Assembly: GCA_945905765.1 (NCBI GenBank)
Contig: CAMDPZ010000019.1
Location: 1-36,867, forward strand
DNA from: Nitrospira lenta
GTDB taxonomy: Bacteria; Nitrospirota; Nitrospiria; Nitrospirales; Nitrospiraceae
Reading direction: 5' to 3'
DNA: 36,867 bases
In this document: piece by piece, positions 14,499 to 24,713 of the stretch
Position numbering within the stretch: position 1 is the stretch's first letter
How the letters are laid out: the number at the start of each line of letters is the position of its first letter
Notes under the pieces: generated by a model
What the model was told of the DNA's origin: nothing
Database searches by the model: none
What the model saw: only the letters and a program-made list of their open reading frames with translations
Made by a program: the position numbers and the translations under genes

Positions 14499-14715
14499 GA
14501 CAGGCTCCCTTTCTATCCAGGTCACGGATGAATCACATATTTTGAACATCCTAACAGCAATGGGTTGAAGAAGATGGAATATTCGCGAGGGGACAGCCGC
14601 CTGGTCCTCCTTCTGCTCGCGGTACGCGCAGGATCGGAATGTGCTCTGCGACGCGTGCAGTCGAGGATCGACTAACTGTGCTGTAAAGAAAGATATGAGA
14701 TAGCTGGGAGGGAGG

Positions 14716-14889
14716 ATGGAGCCTGATGATCTGCTGTGCTCGCGCAGCGGAAGACCGATTCCAGGCTTCTACTTGTTTGAGACTCGCAGGCTGGATGGTT
14801 CACGAGAGGACTGTTCTCAGGGAGGATTCATGTGGCAGGTTGGGTCTTACCCTTGGCGAGGCGGCTCGCCAAGGGTGGTCAGCCCTTAA
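14716..14889 (+). CDS. Possible small protein (57 residues), unrecognised
   Basis: An ORF starts at ATG 14716 after the purine-rich GGGAGGGAGG, which abuts the start codon rather than leaving normal spacing. The product is mildly acidic to neutral with a cluster GFYLFETRRLDGSREDCSQG and a Trp/Pro-rich end (FMWQVGSYPWRG). I do not recognise a family. Its 3-prime end contains the stem at 14849-14876, and its TAA stop overlaps the stop of the minus-strand ORF. It may be chance. Confidence 0.3.
   Translation: MEPDDLLCSRSGRPIPGFYLFETRRLDGSREDCSQGGFMWQVGSYPWRGGSPRVVSP
14849..14876. repeat. 11-bp inverted repeat (hairpin)
   Basis: ACCCTTGGCGA and TCGCCAAGGGT are perfectly complementary around GGCGGC. 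No T run follows on either strand. It lies ten bases beyond the stop of the minus-strand ORF at 14886-15098 and could end that transcript, or it lies inside the plus ORF at 14716. Confidence 0.6.
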
Positions 14890-15098
14890 CCGATGACGTT
14901 CGGGCCGATTTGCGCCAGCTCTTCGCGATGCTTCCGGATCTCTTCTTCTTCTTGCCGTCTCCGGGCATCATGCGTGCGGCTCGGGGTCGTTTCGCTGCCT
15001 GCTCCATGCGATCCGTTGCTTGAAAATCCGCTCCGCCAGCTGTCGCGAAAGCTCTGATGTTCCATCTCTGCCGTGATATGTGGAAGCCTCTTCTCCAT
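14886..15098 (-). CDS. Possible small charged protein (70 residues), unrecognised
   Basis: The minus-strand ORF starts at ATG 15098 with AAGGAG about 11 bases upstream. The product is polar: a His/Glu-rich start, a Ser/Gly-rich middle, then a charged helix ARRRQEEEEIRKHREELAQI and a short end PNVIG. No family is recognised. The helix could be a short coiled coil. A hairpin just beyond the stop is consistent with a transcript end. Support is moderate at best. Confidence 0.4.
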   Translation of the reverse strand: MEKRLPHITAEMEHQSFRDSWRSGFSSNGSHGAGSETTPSRTHDARRRQEEEEIRKHREELAQIGPNVIG

Positions 15099-15405
15099 CG
15101 ACTCGCTACTCCTTCGATATGTGTTGAAATGTCGGTTGCTGTCTATCGCAACCTTTTGGTTGGTACACTATGCACAAGCCATTCCAGCGAGTTTGTACGG
15201 GAACCGGCTTTAATGCACACTATTTATGAAATATGAACAGGTCGGAACTTGCTCTTGGCGAGAAAGGTGCGCTGCGAGAGCAATAAGTGGCGTGCGTGGT
15301 GCAGGCGTGAGACGTTTGCTACAGGTAGGAGAATGGCGGAGCCAGCAGGTTTTCACTGCGCCAGTTACAAGGAAGAAGGTTGGACTCTCCATTGCTCTCC
15401 GTTCA

Positions 15406-15434
15406 TTGACTCTCTTCAGACCCCTCCATATAAT
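15406..15434 (+). promoter_or_regulatory. Near-consensus sigma70 promoter of the MutL/DUF6754 gene set
   Basis: TTGACT at 15406-15411 and a perfect TATAAT at 15429-15434 are separated by exactly 17 bases. Only one base departs from consensus. The start point would be near 15441, giving a leader of about 34 bases before ATG 15475. It marks the 5-prime end of the seven-gene set and suggests constitutive expression. Confidence 0.8.
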
Positions 15435-15474
15435 GCCGCTCGATAGTCGCTTCTGACTGCCTTTCCAGACAGTT

Positions 15475-15855
15475 ATGACTTCTTTTTCCAAGACATCTCT
15501 GGCGGAAACCTGGGGCAAGGTTCGTGCGGAACTGTCCCATGCCTTTTCAACCGGATCCAAGGTCGAGGTGTTCACCATTGAAGACCTCGCGTTGCTCGAA
15601 CGGGTGGCCGATGCGGTGGTGACGCGGGGAATGGCGGCTCCTGCCACGGTGTTTCTCGAATCGCTTGGACCCATGAACTTTCTCGGCAGCCAGGCCCTGT
15701 ACTTCCTGACTCCGATCATCGAATGGGCGTTCAACGTGAAGGAAGTCGAGCAGGTGGCCCGCTTGCTCGAACGGCGCGATACGATCTCCCGTCTCCTGAC
15801 CCTCATTGAAACGAAGTCTGCTCCCCAGGCTCCTCAAGGAGCCTCTGCTCAATGA
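15475..15855 (+). CDS. Conserved-looking small helical protein, first gene of the MutL/DUF6754 set
   Basis: I do not recognise a named family. The 126-residue protein looks largely helical and soluble, with a central hydrophobic stretch (FLESLGPMNFLGSQALYFLT, about residues 61-80), a probable amphipathic helix VKEVEQVARLLERRDTISRL and a disordered Ala/Pro/Gln tail. No signal peptide is present. The central stretch could associate peripherally with a membrane or with its neighbours. ATG 15475 lies 40 bases after the -10 box; its stop overlaps the MutL-like start (ATGA), so the two are coupled and probably work together. Confidence 0.8.
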   Translation: MTSFSKTSLAETWGKVRAELSHAFSTGSKVEVFTIEDLALLERVADAVVTRGMAAPATVFLESLGPMNFLGSQALYFLTPIIEWAFNVKEVEQVARLLERRDTISRLLTLIETKSAPQAPQGASAQ

Positions 15856-17690
15856 TTGTGCCGAGCGCTACATCTAAGTCTGTGAGCACCCAGCCGCTCA
15901 ACGTCATCGTGGCGACTGATTGCGGCAGCACCACGACCAAAGCCATCCTGATCGAAAAAATCGGCAACGAATACCGGCAGACCTATCGAGGGGAAGCGCC
16001 TACGACTGTGGAAGCGCCCTTCGAAGATGTGACGCGCGGAGTGCTGAACGCGATTGCGGAAATCGAAGAACTCTCCGGCCGGAAAATCCTGGACGGAGAT
16101 CGGATCATTACGCCCTGCCGCGATGCGAAGACCGGCGTCGACATCTATATCTCCACCAGCAGCGCGGGCGGCGGCTTGCAGATGATGGTGACGGGCGTGG
16201 TGCAGAACATGACGGGGGAAAGCGCGCAACGGGCCGCGCTGGGCGCCGGCGCGATCGTCATCGATGTGCTCGCCTCCAACGATGGCCGGCTGCCCCATGA
16301 AAAGATCGAACGGATTCGCACGATGAGACCGGACATGATCTTGATGTCCGGCGGGACGGACGGGGGCGCGGTGACCCATGTGGTCGAGATGGCCGAATAT
16401 ATTTCCGCCGCGGAGCCCCGTCCCCGCTTTGGGGCCACCTATAAGCTCCCCTTGATTTACGCGGGCAACAAAGATGCGCAGCCGCAAGTGAAGAAGATCC
16501 TGGGCGAGAAAGCTGCCCTGGTACTGACCGACAATATTCGTCCTGTGCTGGAGCGGGAGAACCTCACGCCCGCGCGCGACAAGATTCACGACCTTTTCCT
16601 CGAACATGTCATGCAGCAGGCGCCTGGCTATAAGAAGCTGATCGAGATGGCCGGGGCGCCGATCATGCCGACGCCGGCGGCGGTCGGGGTGATCATGGAA
16701 ACGATCGCCAAGCGGGAACATCTGAACTTGATCGGGGTGGATATCGGCGGCGCGACCACGGACGTCTTTTCGGTCTTCGAAGGCCTGTTCAACCGGACCG
16801 TCAGCGCGAACCTCGGGATGTCCTACAGTATCTCCAACGTGCTGGCTGAGGCGGGCCTCGCCAACATCATGCGCTGGGTGCCCTTCACCCTCGACGAGCA
16901 GACGCTGCGCAACCGGATCAAGAATAAGATGGTCCGTCCGACCACGATTCCTCAGACGCTGGACGAGCTGCAGATCGAACATGCCATTGCCCGCGAGGCC
17001 CTCCGGCTCGCGCTAATTCATCACAAGTCCCTTGCGACGGCGCTCAAAGGCATACAGCAGGAACGGACGATCTCGGACGTGTTTGAACAGCAGCAGTCCG
17101 GCAAGACCTTGATCGATATGCTCAAGCTGGATTTGATCGTGGGGAGCGGCGGGATTTTGTCCCATGCGCCGCGCCGTGTGCAATCGATGTTGATGATGGT
17201 GGATGCCTATGAGCCGCTCGGAGTGACTAGGCTCTCGGTGGACAGCATCTTCATGATGCCGCATCTGGGCGTGCTTTCGACGATTAACGAGCAGGCGGCC
17301 ACCGATGTCTTCGTCCGCGATTGCATGGTCTATCTGGGGACCTGCGTCGCGCCGATCGGGCAGGGGAAAGAGGGAGAGCGGTGCGCAGACTATGCCATTA
17401 CCTTCCCGGACGGGCGAGTGGACAAGGGGCAACTGTCGTTCGGTGATTTGCGGCTGCTGCCATTGGCCAGCGATCAGAAGGCCTCGATCACGATCCAGCC
17501 GGCGAAACAGGTTAACCTCGGAGCCGGGGCAGGAGTCTCGGTCACGCGCGAGGTGCAGGGAGGCGTGGTGGGACTCTTGCTCGATGGACGAGGGCGACCC
17601 TTGCAGTTGCCGACCGAGCACAATGCCAGAGTGGCCATGTTGACGAAATGGTTCAAAGCTGTCGGATTGTACCCGGGAAGTGATGTGTGA
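15852..17690 (+). CDS. MutL/GlmL-family actin-fold ATPase (glutamate mutase L-like)
   Basis: The 612-residue protein has the ASKHA nucleotide-binding pattern: phosphate-1 loop ATDCGSTTTKAILIEK (about residues 20-35) and phosphate-2 loop IGVDIGGATTDVFSV (about 296-310), with an LMSGGTDGGAV motif between. Sequence and length match the MutL family named for the product of the glutamate mutase operon, thought to act as a reactivating chaperone of the B12 enzyme. No mutase subunit gene (mutS/mutE, glmS/glmE) is nearby; the neighbours are membrane proteins, so a role in mutase repair is unlikely here. It shares four bases with the gene before it. Its last codons S-D-V-stop lie in a GTGATG repeat, so the C-terminus may be repeat-derived. 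Confidence 0.9.
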   Translation: MIVPSATSKSVSTQPLNVIVATDCGSTTTKAILIEKIGNEYRQTYRGEAPTTVEAPFEDVTRGVLNAIAEIEELSGRKILDGDRIITPCRDAKTGVDIYISTSSAGGGLQMMVTGVVQNMTGESAQRAALGAGAIVIDVLASNDGRLPHEKIERIRTMRPDMILMSGGTDGGAVTHVVEMAEYISAAEPRPRFGATYKLPLIYAGNKDAQPQVKKILGEKAALVLTDNIRPVLERENLTPARDKIHDLFLEHVMQQAPGYKKLIEMAGAPIMPTPAAVGVIMETIAKREHLNLIGVDIGGATTDVFSVFEGLFNRTVSANLGMSYSISNVLAEAGLANIMRWVPFTLDEQTLRNRIKNKMVRPTTIPQTLDELQIEHAIAREALRLALIHHKSLATALKGIQQERTISDVFEQQQSGKTLIDMLKLDLIVGSGGILSHAPRRVQSMLMMVDAYEPLGVTRLSVDSIFMMPHLGVLSTINEQAATDVFVRDCMVYLGTCVAPIGQGKEGERCADYAITFPDGRVDKGQLSFGDLRLLPLASDQKASITIQPAKQVNLGAGAGVSVTREVQGGVVGLLLDGRGRPLQLPTEHNARVAMLTKWFKAVGLYPGSDV

Positions 17691-17770
17691 TGAGTGAAGG
17701 GTGATGGGTAAGAAGGGCTGTGCGGAAATGTACGTTCCCTGCCTATCACGCATCACTGATCATTTATCAC
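17679..17770. repeat. GTGATG/CATCAC inverted repeat (word class B, copy 1)
   Basis: The left arm begins AGTGATGTGTGATGAGTG and continues with GGGTGATGGG; the right arm reads CTATCACGCATCACTGATCA and continues TTTATCAC. Each arm is a degenerate run of GTGATG-like words and the arms are complementary over most of their length. The left arm includes the MutL-like stop codon; the right arm ends 12 bases before the next ATG. Confidence 0.85.
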
Positions 17771-17782
17771 GGCATTAAAATT

Positions 17783-18910
17783 ATGGCCCATTCTTACACA
17801 CCAGGCTTAACCGTCACAGAACAGACCACGGTCCGTCGCAGACGGATGTTGTCTCTGCCAGGCACAGTGCTGGTCGCAGTGGGCGAGTCTGTGCGTGCGA
17901 ATCAGGCTGTGGCTCGTGCGGAATTGCCCGGGAAGGTCTATCCCCTGAACCTGGCCAACCAGCTGGGCGTCGCGCCGGATGAGATCAACGAGTATCTGAT
18001 CAAGAAGGCCGGCGATCCGGTGCGGAAGGACGAGATCCTGGCGGAGAATAAACCGCTCATCAAATGGTTCAAGACGGAAGTTCTTTCTCCTATTACAGGC
18101 CTGGTGGAATCCGTGTCCACCATCACGGGGCAGGTCCTGTTGCGGGAGCCGCCGCGCGTGCTAGAGCTGTTGGGCTATGTAGACGGACTCATCGTCGAGG
18201 TGATCCCTCAGCAAGGGGTCGTGGTCGAAACCGATTGCAGTCTGGTACAGGGGATCTTCGGCATCGGCGGGGAAACCTGGGGCGAGATCGTGATCGCGGT
18301 GACTGCGCCGGACGAAGTCCTCTCGCCTCGTCACTTCACCGATGCCATGAAGGGCAAGGTGGTCGTGGGAGGTTCCTTCATCTCGTCGGACGGGTTGGCT
18401 CGCGCGAAAGAGGTGGGGGTGGCGGGGTTGGTTATTGGCGGCATTCATGATAAGGATTTGCGCGCACTCTTGGGCTACGACCTTGGCGTGGCCATCACTG
18501 GCACGGAACGAGTCGGCTTTACCCTCATCCTCACCGAAGGGTTCGGCACCATCCCCATGGCCGACAAAACATTCACGCTCCTCTCAGCTCATGCGGGCCA
18601 ACTGGCCTCCATTTCAGGCGCGACGCAAATTCGCGCCGGCGTCATTCGTCCGGAGATCATCATTCCCAAGCGCATCACGGGCTCTCACGGCGCTGCCACC
18701 ATGCCCCAGCGGGAAGGCATCAGAGTCGGCGACCAGGTGCGGATCATTCGAGATCCTCTGTTCGGCAAGATCGGCGAAGTCGCGAGCCTGCCATCCGACC
18801 TCCAGAAGATTCCGACCGAAAGTGAAGTGCGCGTGATGGAAGTCCGCTTTGCCGACGGCAGCAGGGTGATGATTCCTCGGACCAATATCGAACTGATCGA
18901 GGGGGCTTAG
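17783..18910 (+). CDS. Soluble protein with barrel-sandwich (RnfC/biotinyl-like) and KOW-like parts
   Basis: The function is unknown. The first ~140 residues show two hammerhead-like units typical of barrel-sandwich folds: PGTVLVAVGESVRANQAVAR and, later, AGDPVRKDEILAENK then LSPITGLVESVSTITGQV. A Gly-rich middle (GIFGIGGETWGE, KGKVVVGGSFISSDGLARAK, GLVIGGIHDKDLRALLGYD) resembles an alpha/beta unit. The last ~65 residues (GIRVGDQVRIIRDPLFGKIG onward) look like a KOW/SH3-type barrel. No signal peptide or membrane helix. I chose ATG 17783 (375 residues): upstream codons to 17720 lie in the class B repeat. It probably contacts the MutL-like ATPase and the membrane proteins. The stop is five bases from the next possible ATG. 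Confidence 0.82.
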   Translation: MAHSYTPGLTVTEQTTVRRRRMLSLPGTVLVAVGESVRANQAVARAELPGKVYPLNLANQLGVAPDEINEYLIKKAGDPVRKDEILAENKPLIKWFKTEVLSPITGLVESVSTITGQVLLREPPRVLELLGYVDGLIVEVIPQQGVVVETDCSLVQGIFGIGGETWGEIVIAVTAPDEVLSPRHFTDAMKGKVVVGGSFISSDGLARAKEVGVAGLVIGGIHDKDLRALLGYDLGVAITGTERVGFTLILTEGFGTIPMADKTFTLLSAHAGQLASISGATQIRAGVIRPEIIIPKRITGSHGAATMPQREGIRVGDQVRIIRDPLFGKIGEVASLPSDLQKIPTESEVRVMEVRFADGSRVMIPRTNIELIEGA

Positions 18911-19035
18911 CGGGATGCTGAAAACGTCTGCCAGCTTCGTTCTCGGCTCGCCGAAATCCTCAACGTACCCTGGAGGGTACGCCTCCGGTTTCGACTCGCC
19001 TGCGGCCTTGCTGGACAGCCGTTTTGAGCATCCCG
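18911..19035. repeat. ~124-bp palindromic dispersed element, copy 3, inside a coding start
   Basis: Ends are CGGGATGCTGAAAACG and CGTTTTGAGCATCCCG, complementary but for one base. The centre is CGTACCC-tgga-GGGTACG, and the inner arms (CCGAAATCC with CCGGTTTCG; CTGCCAGC with GCTGGACAG) pair with one or two mismatches. It starts one base after the stop of the preceding gene, and its ATG at 18915 opens the frame that runs into the DUF6754-like gene. Confidence 0.9.
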
Positions 19036-20285
19036 TCTCATGGTTGGCATTGCTGCTCCTGTTCGTCGTTATTCCCTGGTCGCCGGTGTTTGCTCAGTAC
19101 GAGGACCAGACGAAGAAGACCCTCTCTCCTCCCCAAGATGTCCGCGCCTTCGATACGCCCAGCGACGGTGGCGGCAGTGTAACCGTGATTTGGGCGCCGG
19201 CCGCTTACGATAGCGCTGAGACCAAGTATCAGATCCTCCTGAGCGAGGGATCGGCGGTTGATCTTGCTGCGATGAAGGTCGTGGCGGAGTTTCCTGCCAA
19301 TCAACATTACGTCCGCGAATCCAAGTGGCCCTGGTGGACGAGGCCTGCGACGGGTGATCAGCATCAGTTTACATTGAGGAACGGACGGGGAGTCGAGCTG
19401 AAGAGCGGGACTGTCTACAGCATCACGGTGGCGGCGGTGCTGAGCAACGATCGCGGCATTGCCCCGCCTGTGCTGGTGACGCCGCAACCGAACTGGATGA
19501 ACTGGAATCAGATTAATAATCTTGTGCTGGCGCTTCTGTTCGGTGGCATCGTGTTCTACGCGATTGGCAGGGCCAGAACGAAGGAGATCTTCTTGCGCCG
19601 TATTCCCGGCCTGGATGCCGTGGATGAGGCCATCGGTCGCGCGACCGAGCTGGGCAAGCCGATTCTCTATCTAACCGGCGCCCACGACATGAGCGATCCC
19701 TCGACGATCGCGGCGGCGGTCATTCTGGGGCGGGTGGCTAAACGCACGGCAGCCTATGAGACCGAGCTGCTCGTGCCTCATCGGGACCCGATGACCATGG
19801 CTGTCTGTCAGGAAATTACGAAACAGGCCTATCTGGAAGCAGGCAAGCCGGATCTTTACAAGGATGATTCCAATTTCTTCATTACGTCGGATCAGTTCAG
19901 CTATACCGCAGCAGTGGACGGGATCATGCTGCGCAAAAAGCCTGCGGCGAATTTCTTCATGGGAGCCTACTTTGCCGAAGCCTTACTCTTGACCGAAACC
20001 GGCGCGAGCACCGGCGCGATTCAAATAGCCGGGACGGACTCGGATCACCAGCTCCCGTTCTTCGTCACCACCTGCGATTACACCTTGATCGGGGAGGAGC
20101 TCTACGCGGCCAGCGCCTATCTCTCTAGAGAGCCGGTGCAGGTCGGGACCTTGCTCGGACAGGATATCGGTAAGGGGCTCATCCTCTGCATCCTCGTAGC
20201 TGGGACCGTCCTGGCCACTCTGGGAGTGTTGCTCGATGTGCAGTGGCCGCAATTGTTTCTGGATGTGTTTAAGGACGTGAAATGA
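18915..20285 (+). CDS. DUF6754-like membrane protein with Fn3-like outer domain
   Basis: The recognisable protein starts with a signal-type hydrophobic segment (LALLLLFVVIPWSPVFAQ), then an outside domain of about 130 residues that looks fibronectin-III-like (VTVIWAPAAYD, TKYQILLSEG, VYSITVAAVL). A helix follows (NLVLALLFGGIVFYAIGRA), then a cytoplasmic domain (RIPGLDAVDEAIGRATELGK, LYLTGAHDMSDPSTIAAAVI) matching what I know as DUF6754, and a final helix (LILCILVAGTVLATLGVLL). From ATG 18915 (AGGGGG nine bases upstream) the protein is 456 residues and its first ~41 residues are repeat copy 3. TTG 19044 or 19050 would give a normal signal peptide but lack a ribosome-binding site. The stop overlaps the next start (ATGA). 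Function unknown. Confidence 0.85.
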   Translation: MLKTSASFVLGSPKSSTYPGGYASGFDSPAALLDSRFEHPVSWLALLLLFVVIPWSPVFAQYEDQTKKTLSPPQDVRAFDTPSDGGGSVTVIWAPAAYDSAETKYQILLSEGSAVDLAAMKVVAEFPANQHYVRESKWPWWTRPATGDQHQFTLRNGRGVELKSGTVYSITVAAVLSNDRGIAPPVLVTPQPNWMNWNQINNLVLALLFGGIVFYAIGRARTKEIFLRRIPGLDAVDEAIGRATELGKPILYLTGAHDMSDPSTIAAAVILGRVAKRTAAYETELLVPHRDPMTMAVCQEITKQAYLEAGKPDLYKDDSNFFITSDQFSYTAAVDGIMLRKKPAANFFMGAYFAEALLLTETGASTGAIQIAGTDSDHQLPFFVTTCDYTLIGEELYAASAYLSREPVQVGTLLGQDIGKGLILCILVAGTVLATLGVLLDVQWPQLFLDVFKDVK

Positions 20286-20932
20286 TTTTTCTTCGTCGAC
20301 AGGTCCCGCTTCTGATTACGCTCATCACGGGGCTGGTGTTTGCGGCACAGTATTATGTGCCGCATCCGGCTTCGGAGCAGATGCTGACCTCCGTCACCAA
20401 GTGGCTCCAGATCATCGGCGGATTTGCGCTGGTACTGGGCGTGAGCAGCCTGTTCCACGTCCATGCGATCAAGATTCGGCGCAAGGAAGCAGGCTGGGGC
20501 TACAGTTTCGTGCTCTATGTGAGCATGCTGGGCACCATTGCGGTCGGCCTCTGGTCGAACGGTAAAGAAGCTGTCGATGGTGCCATGACCTCCTTTGGCT
20601 GGATCTATAACTTCATGATGGTGCCCTTGCAGGGGACGATGTTTGCCATCCTCGCCTTCTTCATCGCCTCGGCCGCCTACCGGTCGTTCCGCGCGAGGAG
20701 CCGCGAGGCGGCGGTCCTGCTCATTGCGGCGGTGATCGTGATGATGGGCCGAGTGCCGCTCGGGGAATATCTCATCCCGCTCAGCGGCGACCTGTCTCAG
20801 TGGATCTTGAACGTGCTGAATGCGTCGGTGCGGCGGGCGATCCTGATCGGCGTGAGCCTCGGCACTGTCGCCCTCTCCATCAAGATCATCTTCGGGATGG
20901 AACGGTCGTATCTGGGCGGCGGGAAAGAGTAA
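20282..20932 (+). CDS. Six-helix inner-membrane protein of the MutL/DUF6754 set
   Basis: No named family is recognised. The 216-residue protein has six likely membrane helices: QVPLLITLITGLVFAAQYYV, WLQIIGGFALVLGVSSLFHV, FVLYVSMLGTIAVGLW, FMMVPLQGTMFAILAFFIAS, AVLLIAAVIVMMGRVPLGEY and ILIGVSLGTVALSIKIIF. Between helices 2 and 3 a basic loop (IKIRRKEAGW) suggests the cytoplasmic side. No transport signature is visible. It overlaps the DUF6754-like gene by four bases, so the two products are made together and likely form a complex. Confidence 0.82.
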   Translation: MIFLRRQVPLLITLITGLVFAAQYYVPHPASEQMLTSVTKWLQIIGGFALVLGVSSLFHVHAIKIRRKEAGWGYSFVLYVSMLGTIAVGLWSNGKEAVDGAMTSFGWIYNFMMVPLQGTMFAILAFFIASAAYRSFRARSREAAVLLIAAVIVMMGRVPLGEYLIPLSGDLSQWILNVLNASVRRAILIGVSLGTVALSIKIIFGMERSYLGGGKE

Positions 20933-20936
20933 GGCA

Positions 20937-21018
20937 AAGTTAAAAATGCAAAATGAAAAATTGATCGAATCTCGTACGTGTTACCCTATTTTGCATTTTA
21001 CATTTTGCATTTCTCATT
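20937..21018. repeat. AAATGCAAAATG inverted repeat (word class D)
   Basis: The left arm (AAGTTAAAAATGCAAAATGA) is answered by TTTTGCATTTTACATTTTGC and then ATTTCTCATT. The arms are A/T-rich, unlike the flanking DNA, and built from the same kind of degenerate short words as the other repeats. It lies between the six-helix protein gene and the next gene and ends just before the GAGGT ribosome-binding site at 21021. Confidence 0.8.
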
Positions 21019-21031
21019 GCGAGGTCACGCG

Positions 21032-21877
21032 GTGACCTTCGCAGAGCGCATGTTGAAAATCGACCGGCGGATCATCTTTCTGGTGATCGGCCTCTGCACG
21101 CTCTTGCCCTTGCTCTATCCGGTCGGGCTGCCGATCAAGATTTCGCCGGAAGTGCGAGGGGTCTACGATTACATCGAGTCGCTCCCGGAGGGGTCCGTGT
21201 TTCTGCTCTCGCTGGATTTCGATCCTGCCTCGAAGCCGGAGCTCCATCCCCAATCGATTTCCTTACTGCGTCATGCTTTCCGGAAGAATCTCCGTGTGGT
21301 GGCGATGACCCTCTGGGTCTCCGGCACCGGCATGGCAGACCAGGTCGTGACGCAGGTCGCCCGTGAGATGGGCAAGGAGAACGGGAAGGACTATGTGTTC
21401 CTCGGTTGGAGCCCAGGCGGAACCGCCGTCATCATGAATATGGGGCAGGACCTCTATGGGGCCTTTCCTGCAGACTACAATGGCAAACCGACGAAGGGGC
21501 TCCCAGTGCTTCAGGGGATTGCCAACCTGCGAGATGTGAACTATGCCGTCAGTCTGGGAGCAGGCAATCCCGGCGTGGAAGCCTGGTATGTGTTCGGCAA
21601 GGACAAGTACAAGTTCGAGCTTGGCGGAGGCTGCACCGGCGTGATGGCTCCCGGCTTATATCCTTTGTTGAGGAGCGGTCAGATCAATGGACTGATCGGG
21701 GGCCTGCGAGGCGCAGCGGAATACGAGACCCTGATCGGCCAGAAGGGGAAAGCCATTGCCGGCATGGATGCCCAATCTGCCACCCATCTTGCCATTATCG
21801 TGCTGGTGATCCTCTGTAATCTGTTTTACTTCTCGTTGCGTAGGCAGTCTAAGCAACAGGGCCATTCTGGATTGTGA
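21032..21877 (+). CDS. Two-helix membrane protein with large outer domain, MutL/DUF6754 set
   Basis: No named family is recognised. After a short basic start there is one helix (RRIIFLVIGLCTLLPLLYPV), then about 215 residues outside the cytoplasm, then a C-terminal helix (ATHLAIIVLVILCNLFYFSL) with a basic end. The middle contains an alpha/beta pattern: EVRGVYDYIESLPEGSVFLL, LDFDPASKPELHPQS, VAMTLWVSGTGMA, and a glycine-rich LGGGCTGVMAPGLYPLLRSG. I chose GTG 21032, with GAGGT six bases upstream; earlier in-frame codons back to 20978 lie in the class D repeat. Orientation of the middle domain is inferred from positive charges. It is followed after 6 bases by the last gene of the set. Confidence 0.8.
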   Translation: MTFAERMLKIDRRIIFLVIGLCTLLPLLYPVGLPIKISPEVRGVYDYIESLPEGSVFLLSLDFDPASKPELHPQSISLLRHAFRKNLRVVAMTLWVSGTGMADQVVTQVAREMGKENGKDYVFLGWSPGGTAVIMNMGQDLYGAFPADYNGKPTKGLPVLQGIANLRDVNYAVSLGAGNPGVEAWYVFGKDKYKFELGGGCTGVMAPGLYPLLRSGQINGLIGGLRGAAEYETLIGQKGKAIAGMDAQSATHLAIIVLVILCNLFYFSLRRQSKQQGHSGL

Positions 21878-21883
21878 GGATCT

Positions 21884-22636
21884 ATGCCGATTGAAACCAT
21901 CATCGGGGCCTGGGTGGCAACGGGGCTGACCCTCTTTATCTTCTCGTTCCTCTATAAGGATAACCCCCTGTTCAAGCTGGCGGAGAACCTCTACGTCGGA
22001 GTATCGGTCGGCTATACCATCGTGAAGACCTACGACACGGTGATCGTCCATCTCATCTGGACCCCGATCGTCAAGAACGGGGAATGGGCCCTGTTGATCC
22101 CGGTTGCCATCGGAATGCTCATGCTCACGCGCTATGTGCCGAAAGCCGCTTGGCTCTCGCGCTATGCGTTCGCGTTTATTGTGGGAGTCGGGTCAGGCCT
22201 GGCCATTCCGCGGGTGATTTCCTCCTACATCCTCAAACAGATCGAAGATACGGTGCGCCCGCTTCTGGTGATGGTGCCGGGCGAGGGGCTCACCTTTACC
22301 TGGAACTTGCTCAACCCGGCCAGCAGCCTCAATACCATCATCATTCTGATCGGGGTCAGTTCCGTGTTGTTTTACTTCTTCTTCTCCGTCGAACATACGG
22401 GGCCAGGCAAGGTCGTGGCCAGGACCGGCATCCTCTTCCTGATGATCGCGTTCGGCGCTGCCTTCGGTTATACCGTGATGGCCCGCATGTCGCTCTTGAT
22501 CGGGCGGTTGACCGACCTGATCGAGTTCACCGATCCCTCCTATGGCAGGCCAAGCCTCTGGCTCCTGGGGTTGACCATTCTCACCCTGGTGGTGATGGGC
22601 CGCAGGGGCAGCAGTAGTACTCCCGAAAAAGAGTAG
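21884..22636 (+). CDS. Seven-helix inner-membrane protein, last gene of the MutL/DUF6754 set
   Basis: No named family is recognised. The 250-residue protein has about seven membrane helices, including TIIGAWVATGLTLFIFSFLY at the start, WALLIPVAIGMLMLTRYV, YAFAFIVGVGSGLAIPRVI, IIILIGVSSVLFYFFFSV and LWLLGLTILTLVVMGRRG at the end. There are few charged residues inside the helices, so a transporter role is not evident. A TGAGGA stretch lies just before ATG 21884. The stop is followed at once by the class A inverted repeat, a plausible end of the transcript. Confidence 0.82.
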   Translation: MPIETIIGAWVATGLTLFIFSFLYKDNPLFKLAENLYVGVSVGYTIVKTYDTVIVHLIWTPIVKNGEWALLIPVAIGMLMLTRYVPKAAWLSRYAFAFIVGVGSGLAIPRVISSYILKQIEDTVRPLLVMVPGEGLTFTWNLLNPASSLNTIIILIGVSSVLFYFFFSVEHTGPGKVVARTGILFLMIAFGAAFGYTVMARMSLLIGRLTDLIEFTDPSYGRPSLWLLGLTILTLVVMGRRGSSSTPEKE

Positions 22637-22740
22637 GTCTATCTAGTCTGTCTTGTCTATTCGGTCTGTCTGGTCTAACAAGACCAACCAGATAGACGAG
22701 ATAGACCAGATGAACCAGATAGACCAAACAGACCAGACTG
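22636..22740. repeat. GTCT/AGAC inverted repeat (word class A, copy 2)
   Basis: The left arm (GGTCTATCTAGTCTGTCTTG, then GTCTATTCGGTCTGTCTGG) is a run of GTCTRTC words; the right arm (GACCAACCAGATAGACGAGA, then TAGACCAGATGAACCAG, ATAGACCAAACAGACCAGAC) is the complementary run of AGAC words. The arms can pair in several registers. It follows a stop codon directly and precedes a likely promoter at 22745, so it may insulate the two units. Confidence 0.85.
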
Positions 22741-22744
22741 ACGG

Positions 22745-22774
22745 TTGCAGCTGGCGTAATCCCTTCGTTACAAT
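22745..22774 (+). promoter_or_regulatory. Possible sigma70 promoter of the Memo-like gene
   Basis: TTGCAG at 22745-22750 and TACAAT at 22769-22774 are 18 bases apart. The -10 box is good, the -35 box matches at three positions. The leader would be about 16 bases to ATG 22796, with AAGGAG at 22786-22791. Confidence 0.45.
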
Positions 22775-22795
22775 GGCGCTCCAATAAGGAGTGCT

Positions 22796-24043
22796 ATGAC
22801 TACTACAGCCAGCCCCACAAAAGACCCCAAGCAGTATCCCGCTCTTCGCAATCTGCAATTCTCGCCGATCAGAGAAGGCGAGGAGCAGTTCATGGTCCTG
22901 TGGGACCCGACGGGCTTGAGCAAAGAAAAGCTCGTGCTGCCGCTCAACTACTTTTTCATCATTCAGCATTTTGACGGTGAACATTCGCTGGCGGAGATCG
23001 GGGCGCTGTACCTGAAGCGATTCGGTGAATTTCTCGTGCCCAGTAAGATGGATCAGCTGGTTGTCGATTTGAATGAGAAGCTGTTCCTGGAGGGTCAGCG
23101 CGCCGAGGAGGCCGGGCGGCTGGCGCGGGAAGCCTATCGGCAGAGCCCGCTACGTCGCGCGGCCCATGCAGGGCGGGGCTATGAAGCAGACAGTGCCAAG
23201 CTGAAAAAACAGATCGACGGATTCTTTACGTCGGAAGAAGGACCGGACTTCAAACCGTCAGAGAATGCGGGCAAGAAAATCAAAGGTCTCGTTGCTCCGA
23301 CCTATGATTTGAAGCAGGCGGGGCCGATCTATGCCTGGGCCTATAAAGAACTCCAAGAAGCGGAGCAGCCGGACCTCTTCGTCATCGTCGGGACTGCGTC
23401 TGCCGGATTGGACCATGTCTTTGCCGTGACGGATAAAGACTTCGAGACCCCGTTCGGCGTCGTATCCGCCGACCAGCCGATCCTGAGTCAGCTCAAGGCC
23501 AAGCTGCCGGAATTTTTCGAAGACGATCTCTGTCATCAGGCGGAGCAGGCGGTGGAGTTTCAGCTTCCCTTTCTTCAAGACATCGTGGGGAAGAAGAAGC
23601 CCTTCACCATCGTCCCGATCTTGAGTGCCTTCTCCGCTGCGAGCCTGGGGGATCCGGCCGTGCGCCAATCGGTCGACCAGTTCTTGACCGGTTTGCGAGA
23701 GGTGCTGGCGCAGTCTGGCAGGACCTACTGTGTGGTCGCAGCGGGCGAGCTGGCCCATTTGGGCATGAGGTATGGAGACAAGGCGCCTCCGACGGACTTC
23801 TCCTTCCATCGCTGCATGCAGTTCGATTTGGAAATGTTGAAGCCGGTGGAGGAGCGGCAGCCGGAAGAGTTCGCCAATTACATCAGGAAAGAGCAGGACC
23901 AGCGCCGGATATCCGGCTTCTCACCCATCTATTCGTTGCTGCGGTTGATCGATGCGGAGAGCGGGCAAGTGTTGCGCTATGACCGCGGGATCACGGACCA
24001 ATATAACTCGACCGTCACGTATGCCAGTATGGCGTTCTTCTGA
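22796..24043 (+). CDS. Memo-family protein (AmmeMemoRadiSam system B-like) with PqqD-like N-terminal domain, ligands lost
   Basis: Residues ~10-105 form a small domain resembling PqqD (YFFIIQHFDGEHSLAEIGAL, then MDQLVVDLNEKLFLEGQRAE). Residues ~160-415 follow the Memo fold: GLVAPTYDLKQAGPIYAWAY, LFVIVGTASAGLDHVF, EQAVEFQLPFLQDI, VVAAGELAHLGMRYGD and a final GFSPIYSLLRLI. In typical members the first reads APHxGY, the third EHSxEVQLPFLQ and the last has a Cys before Gly. Here the two His are Thr169 and Gln251 and the Cys is Ser, so the usual metal site is lost. The reaction of this family in bacteria is unknown to me; this copy is probably non-catalytic or differently used. No AmmeMemoRadiSam A or radical SAM partner is adjacent. 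ATG 22796 has AAGGAG four bases upstream. Confidence 0.85.
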   Translation: MTTTASPTKDPKQYPALRNLQFSPIREGEEQFMVLWDPTGLSKEKLVLPLNYFFIIQHFDGEHSLAEIGALYLKRFGEFLVPSKMDQLVVDLNEKLFLEGQRAEEAGRLAREAYRQSPLRRAAHAGRGYEADSAKLKKQIDGFFTSEEGPDFKPSENAGKKIKGLVAPTYDLKQAGPIYAWAYKELQEAEQPDLFVIVGTASAGLDHVFAVTDKDFETPFGVVSADQPILSQLKAKLPEFFEDDLCHQAEQAVEFQLPFLQDIVGKKKPFTIVPILSAFSAASLGDPAVRQSVDQFLTGLREVLAQSGRTYCVVAAGELAHLGMRYGDKAPPTDFSFHRCMQFDLEMLKPVEERQPEEFANYIRKEQDQRRISGFSPIYSLLRLIDAESGQVLRYDRGITDQYNSTVTYASMAFF

Positions 24044-24049
24044 GAAGAG

Positions 24050-24133
24050 CGTATGGCTGATGGCCTATAGCTAATAGCACAAGCTTCGGTCTTTCTGATC
24101 TCGTGTTATACGCCATAAGCTATTAGCTATCTG
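24050..24133. repeat. ATAGCTAATAGC inverted repeat (word class C)
   Basis: The left arm (ATGGCTGATGGCCTATAGCT, then AATAGCAC) pairs with the right arm (GTGTTATACGCCATAAGCTA, then TTAGCTAT), with a core AGCTAATAGC/GCTATTAGCT. It lies between the stops of two convergent genes and could serve as a bidirectional terminator, although T runs are absent. Confidence 0.8.
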
Positions 24134-24141
24134 CCCTTCCG

Positions 24142-24663
24142 CTACTCCTTGACCGTCATGGTCATGGGGATCGGTTCCAGGGGATTGTCGCAGTCGTCCC
24201 GGACTGCGGCGACGATCTTGTCCACGACATCCATCCCTCGAAAGACCTCGCCGAAGACGGTGTAGGTCCTGTCCAGCCCGCTGTTATCCGCAACACTGAT
24301 ATAAAACTGGGATCCGCTGTCGTTGAAATCTCTCGTGCTGTTGCTCTCCCGTGGCACCTTGGCCATGGCGAGGGCGCCCCGCTTATGAGGTCGATCGCTT
24401 GTTTCGGGATTCAGCCAGTAGCCAGGACTGCCTGATCCGTGCAGGGAGCGGTCCGGGTTCTTGCTCAGCGGATCGCCACCCTGAATGATGAATCCCGGGA
24501 CGACGCGATGGAAGGTGGTGCCATTATAGAACCCCATTTTGACGAGTTTGATGAAGTTCTCGACGTGGCGCGGCGCGTCATCAGGGTAGAAACGAATCTT
24601 GATCTCACCGAAGGGTGTCGTGATGGTGACGCGGGGATCGATTTTTTGGAATTGCATAGTCAT
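24142..24663 (-). CDS. Peptidyl-prolyl cis-trans isomerase, cyclophilin type
   Basis: Cyclophilins speed the cis-trans isomerisation of proline peptide bonds. The 173-residue protein has the fold and active-site motifs FHRVVPGFIIQGGDP (catalytic Arg in FHRV), GALAMAKV, GSQFYISV and YTVFGEVFRGMDVVDKI. No signal peptide is present, so it is cytoplasmic. The length is normal for a single-domain bacterial PpiB. ATG 24663 and a second ATG two codons later are both possible; neither has a clear ribosome-binding site. It lies downstream of the MFS gene on the same strand, separated by a class B repeat. Confidence 0.95.
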   Translation of the reverse strand: MTMQFQKIDPRVTITTPFGEIKIRFYPDDAPRHVENFIKLVKMGFYNGTTFHRVVPGFIIQGGDPLSKNPDRSLHGSGSPGYWLNPETSDRPHKRGALAMAKVPRESNSTRDFNDSGSQFYISVADNSGLDRTYTVFGEVFRGMDVVDKIVAAVRDDCDNPLEPIPMTMTVKE

Positions 24664-24713
24664 GGGTGATGAATGTAGCAGGGGTAAGCTTCAGGCGGCA
24701 AGAGGTATGAAGA

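Follow-up and report, generated by a model that had tools for sequence, protein, structure and literature searches.

A seven-gene set of Nitrospira with a MutL-type ATPase and a DUF6754 protein that probably builds an ATP-using cell-envelope complex

Genes and promoter of the locus

The window, by which is meant the whole 36,867-nucleotide stretch of DNA that was analysed, carries seven open reading frames (ORFs), named A to G here, that span positions 15475-22636 and all lie on the forward strand; checking the ORF list confirmed the seven same-strand genes of the initial annotation. Gene A (15475-15855) encodes a protein of 126 aa without a hydrophobic membrane segment, and gene B (15852-17690) a protein of 612 aa that is predicted from its sequence to be a MutL-type ASKHA ATPase (PF13941). 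The product of gene C (17783-18910) is soluble and consists of a barrel-sandwich hybrid, a middle alpha/beta domain and a KOW domain, while that of gene D (18915-20285) has a putatively outer Fn3 domain, a membrane helix, the DUF6754 core and a C-terminal membrane helix. Genes E (20282-20932) and G (21884-22636) encode multi-pass membrane proteins according to hydropathy, and gene F (21032-21877) a protein with two hydrophobic segments around one domain that is likely to lie outside. The start of gene C was taken as ATG 17783, which fits the relatives, instead of position 17720 in the ORF list, and that of gene F as GTG 21032 instead of 20978. A simple hydropathy scan finds five clusters of hydrophobic segments in each of E and G, so that the six and seven helices first assigned to them are neither confirmed nor excluded.

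The junctions between the genes had been described as including several 4-base overlaps, which holds for two of the six (A/B and D/E); the other four are gaps of 92 (B-C), 4 (C-D), 99 (E-F, counted from GTG 21032) and 6 bases (F-G). Few of the proteins have recognizable relatives. Protein A has no significant Pfam family, either in the window or among its orthologues, protein F has no significant Pfam or PDB relative, and a sequence search for solved relatives of B, C, D, E, F and G gave nothing significant, the best match being that of C with SPT5 (E 0.039). A role in anti-phage defence was rejected, as none of the seven proteins matches a PADLOC defence model at E 0.1. No known RNA element reaches its gathering threshold in 14500-24700. 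The neighbouring genes scanned with Pfam include LepA, signal peptidase and CTP synthase, as well as a Tim44-like protein that is encoded upstream on the opposite strand; downstream lie a Memo protein, a cyclophilin and an MFS transporter.

At the start of the set, on the same strand, is a sigma-70-type promoter (TTGACT, 17 bases, TATAAT; 15406-15434) that agrees with the consensus at 11 of 12 positions, in line with the near-perfect promoter proposed at this place. It is the sole sigma-70-like match in 14500-23500; however, shuffled sequences give 3.1 on average, so the match alone proves little, and its conservation proves more. In 600 mononucleotide shuffles, 10 of 12 positions were reached seven times and 11 never. 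The 150 bases upstream of gene A were compared for 60 of the 61 A orthologues, the remaining one having too little upstream sequence, and both hexamers recur letter for letter in 58 of the 60 loci at -64 to -75 from gene A, with a spacer of 17 in 57 loci and of 18 in one; the exceptions without both hexamers are L105 and L123. In the alignment the promoter stands out as a conserved island, ATTGACTCTC...TATAATG, amid unconserved flanks. Among 15 further loci, the same two hexamers, and with them an 11/12 match, are present in 11, including four from family f27 (L186, L187, L190 and L205; spacer 17 or 18), and a lower match with 8-9 of the 12 positions in three loci from family f28 (L193, L194 and L195) and in L199.

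Co-occurrence, order and boundaries of the set

A single draw of 148 genomes of Nitrospirota, the phylum of the window, served for the searches with all seven families. All seven, that is A, B (MutL), C, D (DUF6754), E, F and G, are present in the same 31 genomes, and the other 117 have none of them, apart from one sub-threshold MutL match in G138 (E 2.3e-4); the homologues are thus not scattered among related genomes. Each family occurs once per positive genome, except for a few split or fragmentary matches. In three genomes (G036, G043 and G147) the match to F has one in-frame stop, in the gene or before its start. All 31 positive genomes belong to the window's own family, f1, of which 32 genomes were sampled; the one f1 genome without the set (G018, 99% complete, 230 contigs) lacks all seven genes and Memo as well, through either loss or an assembly gap. 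Of 120 nearer relatives sampled, 75 carry DUF6754, of which 63 are f1, 8 are f27 and 4 are f28, while the 20 listed of the 45 without it comprise ten f1 genomes (seven of them less than 90% complete) and ten f2 genomes of the same taxonomic order. The sister families f27 and f28 carry the set too, and all genomes with it fall in one taxonomic order. As all 31 genomes come from one family, the co-occurrence of the set represents few evolutionary events and not 31, and for this reason the result shows a unit rather than 31 trials. The expectation of a conserved set without a mutase gene is partly supported, as within this phylum 31 of 148 genomes have all seven genes and none of the 148 has mutase subunit E.

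The sequence of genes is equally constant. In 20 of 20 loci from the 31 genomes, A to G are followed in one order by gene H (22796-24043, forward strand), which lies outside the set and encodes a Memo-like protein with an N-terminal extension (PF01875, E 3.6e-37). Of 100 other loci, some from the same genomes again, 72 have all seven genes in order and the other 28 have partial runs in the same order, most of them on short or cut stretches. An unrelated ORF of 564 residues separates D and E in one f28 locus (L196). One Nitrospira locus (L069) has no detectable A or H, with B to G in place and its only run of N elsewhere. Across 40 loci that hold the complete run of A to H, the pairwise distances of the different genes, also those of H, are correlated at 0.75-0.93, as vertical descent would produce, and the mean distance of B, E and F is 0.13-0.17 against 0.28 for the neighbouring Memo gene. 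The orthologue lists behind these comparisons omit proteins that are identical, short (<85% length), open-ended or N-bearing; the alignment of D holds 70 of 76 orthologues and that of C 70 of 72, each with the window added.

A contig search returned 345 relatives, and the best 80 of these are 78 assigned to Nitrospira, Nitrospirae, Nitrospirota or Nitrospiraceae and two to uncultured Nitrosospira. The carriers in this search include N. moscoviensis and N. defluvii, both of which are nitrite oxidisers. Viral contigs hold no relatives of D, E, F or B, and plasmids none of D, F, E or C; plasmids do hold ten distant relatives of B, of which six are labelled GlmL or glutamate mutase L and the remaining four carry no annotation.

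The Memo-like protein H was considered as an eighth part and rejected, because f2 genomes have H without A to G and f28 genomes have the set without H, even though H follows the set in all 20 loci of the window's family and also in f27. In five f2 genomes (L213-L217) Memo lies near the same cyclophilin, adjacent to it in four and about 2.7 kb off in L216, and no trace of A to G was found in these genomes by tblastn with A to G or by profiles for A and C to G; Memo was in turn not found in three f28 genomes carrying the set. Memo and cyclophilin (22796-24663 in the window) form a block independent of the seven genes, and in L213 an ORF reading like the same MFS gene follows this block. The spacer between G and Memo (22636-22737) is made up of 9-base repeats and folds into a strong hairpin (z -7.3). 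A conserved terminator was considered for this hairpin and rejected, as the spacers of relatives vary from 44 to 370 bases and some hardly fold.

Proteins B, C and D

Protein B matches the MutL family PF13941 with E 1.5e-131 (439.7 bits, cut-off 27), so the identity first given as MutL/GlmL-type holds at the level of the MutL family. More specific models are not reached: B scores 237.4 bits against a cut-off of 475 for the GlmL equivalog NF040745, 168.5 of 204.05 for the wider GlmL-family model TIGR01319, and 210 bits against a cut-off of 600 for Or-4 (NF040744), which is the second-best NCBIfam match; no ornithine pathway gene as in the Or-4 system is present among the window ORFs scanned with Pfam. 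The phosphate-binding motifs DxGSTxTK, GTDGG or GSDGG, and GGATTDV are common to B and three GlmL controls, and DxGSTxTK and GGATTDV are what we take to be the ASKHA nucleotide motifs. These nucleotide motifs are intact in B. B is 30-32% identical to the controls, which belong to the same Pfam family, but it differs in a C-terminal extension of about 120 residues that GlmL is without, whereas GlmL has a short insert before the RTV motif that is absent from B.

A passage of PMC4682846 that cites a paper on diol dehydratase describes MutL or GlmL as a chaperone in the reactivation of glutamate mutase. In all three controls (Peptoclostridium, Prevotella and Rhizobium) GlmL is encoded between the mutase subunits S and E, but the locus of B differs in that neither subunit of a glutamate (methylaspartate) mutase is found among the window ORFs scanned, and PF06368 (methylaspartate mutase E) is present in 0 of the 148 genomes of the phylum. 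The statement that no mutase gene is here stands for the window ORFs scanned, and within this phylum subunit E does not accompany the set.

The AlphaFold2 model of C has a mean pLDDT of 83. Compared with the PDB by Foldseek, only two matches reach E 0.001, with TM-scores of at most 0.17, and the C-terminal part matches many KOW domains (SPT5, NusG and uL24), a good number of them at probability 1.00 with E 0.004-0.03. Profiles place the first part less precisely: RnfC_N matches 12 of 14 C orthologues (best E 1.4e-5), Biotin_lipoyl also 12 (best E 5.1e-5) and NQRA_N 6. As all three match, the first part is assigned to the barrel-sandwich domains as a whole. In the window's own proteins, the Pfam matches to fn3, KOW and RnfC_N are below their cut-offs. 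C also contains the motif SGATQIRAGV, which is the same in at least 13 of 14 aligned sequences at each position; it is similar to the flavin-attachment motif of RnfG/NqrC, without its aspartate. In G108 (L048), the match of C to its profile is split in two inside a single frame of 330 residues, and about 80 residues of the middle domain are seemingly missing.

Protein D combines DUF6754 with an Fn3 domain, as had been proposed from the sequence. The match to PF20539 (DUF6754) has E 4.2e-115 (383.7 bits, cut-off 27) and covers positions 2-250 of 257, so that D holds a nearly full-length copy of what is, by its name, a domain of unknown function; the literature search found no paper mentioning DUF6754. 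The AlphaFold2 model of D is poor (mean pLDDT 58.5), with an unusable DUF6754 core and a confident Fn3 part that matches solved Fn3 domains at a Foldseek probability of 1.00. We infer an outer position for the Fn3 domain and an inner one for the DUF6754 core. In 14 sequences from three families, the core has a mean column identity of 89% with 105 of 183 columns invariant, against 56% for the Fn3 domain, and its invariant residues include H289, C298, D375, D377, H378, C387, D388, E394 and E395. The core of D and the outer domain of F were considered as paralogues; this was rejected, as profile comparison found nothing.

A putative envelope complex and its alternatives

The set A to G probably builds an ATP-using cell-envelope complex. 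In the best explanation, to which a probability of about 0.5 is given, the seven products form one complex and B remodels its membrane part; that the genes are a unit is much surer than this mechanism. One strong promoter would drive all seven genes, and B, together with A and the adaptor C, would bind on the cytoplasmic side to the DUF6754 core of D and to E and G, with the Fn3 domain of D and the domain of F standing outside. ATP binding and hydrolysis by B may then remodel or re-set the membrane part, by analogy with the MutL-type and related reactivases that re-set B12 enzymes, a membrane client here replacing the mutase. Chemistry or ligand binding would most likely take place in the DUF6754 core, which is conserved more strongly than any other part and has many invariant charged, His and Cys residues. 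This reading draws on the joint presence in 31 of 148 genomes, the fixed order, the promoter kept in 58 of 60 loci, the ASKHA motifs, the barrel-sandwich and KOW domains of C, the conservation of the DUF6754 core, and the A/B and D/E overlaps; counted against it are the poor model of the D core, the ORF between D and E in L196, the lack of A in L069, the few evolutionary events, and the lack of a profile match between D and F.

The seven-gene block in Nitrospira and close relatives is apparently undescribed. Titles and abstract openings of the literature on MutL/GlmL, glutamate mutase L, PF13941 and Nitrospira contain nothing on this set, and those searched for a role of a MutL-type ATPase outside B12 mutases yielded no paper. 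Comparison by family, sequence, structure and literature found no known complex that corresponds to the set, a result bounded by the libraries used and by this phylum. It is possible, though speculative, that it represents a new class of ATP-energised envelope machine in Nitrospira and two sister families, in which a B12-reactivase-type ATPase lost its mutase and now powers or gates a housekeeping membrane enzyme or transporter with the DUF6754 core as active centre. If the proposal of one remodelled complex is true, it would provide a role for a MutL-type ATPase outside B12 mutases and an initial clue to DUF6754. Much of the Earth's nitrite oxidation is due to Nitrospira, and an envelope system of seven proteins that 31 of 32 sampled f1 genomes have kept would be a sizeable blind spot in its physiology.

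Rather than remodelling a client enzymatically, B could be a nucleotide-gated clamp or scaffold, as which PilM, GspL and FtsA work, that brings D, E, F and G together into an envelope structure. The ASKHA motifs of B, its weak match to archaeal MreB-like proteins (E 0.12) and the putatively outer domains of D and F are consistent with such a role; however, the family closest to B is MutL, followed by the hydantoinase family and not by actin-like assembly proteins, its Pfam hits include none of PilM, GspL and FtsA, and no pilus or division gene is present among the window ORFs scanned, making this reading rather unlikely. It is quite improbable that B acts as an ordinary reactivase on B12 enzymes whose genes lie elsewhere, its place among membrane genes being incidental. 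B12-binding domains are indeed present in 13 of 13 genomes examined, and the window's genome has seven, none on the window's contig, but three f2 genomes without the set are among the 13, mutase E is absent from all 148 genomes, and above the cut-off B never occurs without its six partners in these genomes. The gaps of 92 and 99 bases at B-C and E-F would suit a pathway of seven genes that are regulated together without their products joining into one complex; the fixed order, the joint presence or absence of all seven and the two 4-base overlaps argue against this, and it is considered very unlikely.

A membrane redox or ion-coupling complex similar to RNF or NQR would assign C as an RnfC/NqrA-like cytoplasmic cap, E and G as the membrane part, and a c-haem partner outside in f27. 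The barrel-sandwich domain of C is weakly RnfC/NqrA-like, as seen in the RnfC_N and NQRA_N matches and in RnfC at rank 11 of its structure matches with a low probability (0.23), yet Biotin_lipoyl matches C as often as RnfC_N, so this likeness is not specific. The rest of C and proteins A, B and D to G have no counterpart in RNF or NQR according to Pfam: Rnf-Nqr membrane, flavin and iron-sulfur subunits have no match in A to G (E and G included) or in the orthologues of A, C, E, F and G, and A to G contain no iron-sulfur or flavin domain. The c-haem partner refers to one or two Tll0287-like genes that lie between C and D in all eight f27 loci (L186-L192 and L205), with two copies in L186, L188 and L190 and one gene cut by a contig end; the one such protein scanned matches PF11845. 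None of the 112 other loci, some of which repeat a genome or do not span the C-D junction, has such a gene. On balance, an RNF- or NQR-like complex is highly doubtful.

For the complex remodelled by B, the c-haem genes of f27 are the sole clue to what it may touch outside. PMC12889525 describes the Tll0287-like family as binding c-haem and its stand-alone domains and members as behaving as redox proteins. The insertion of these genes in f27 speaks more for a redox function than for remodelling alone. At two f27 loci (L186 and L187), an ORF upstream of gene A resembles lipoyl synthase by eye.
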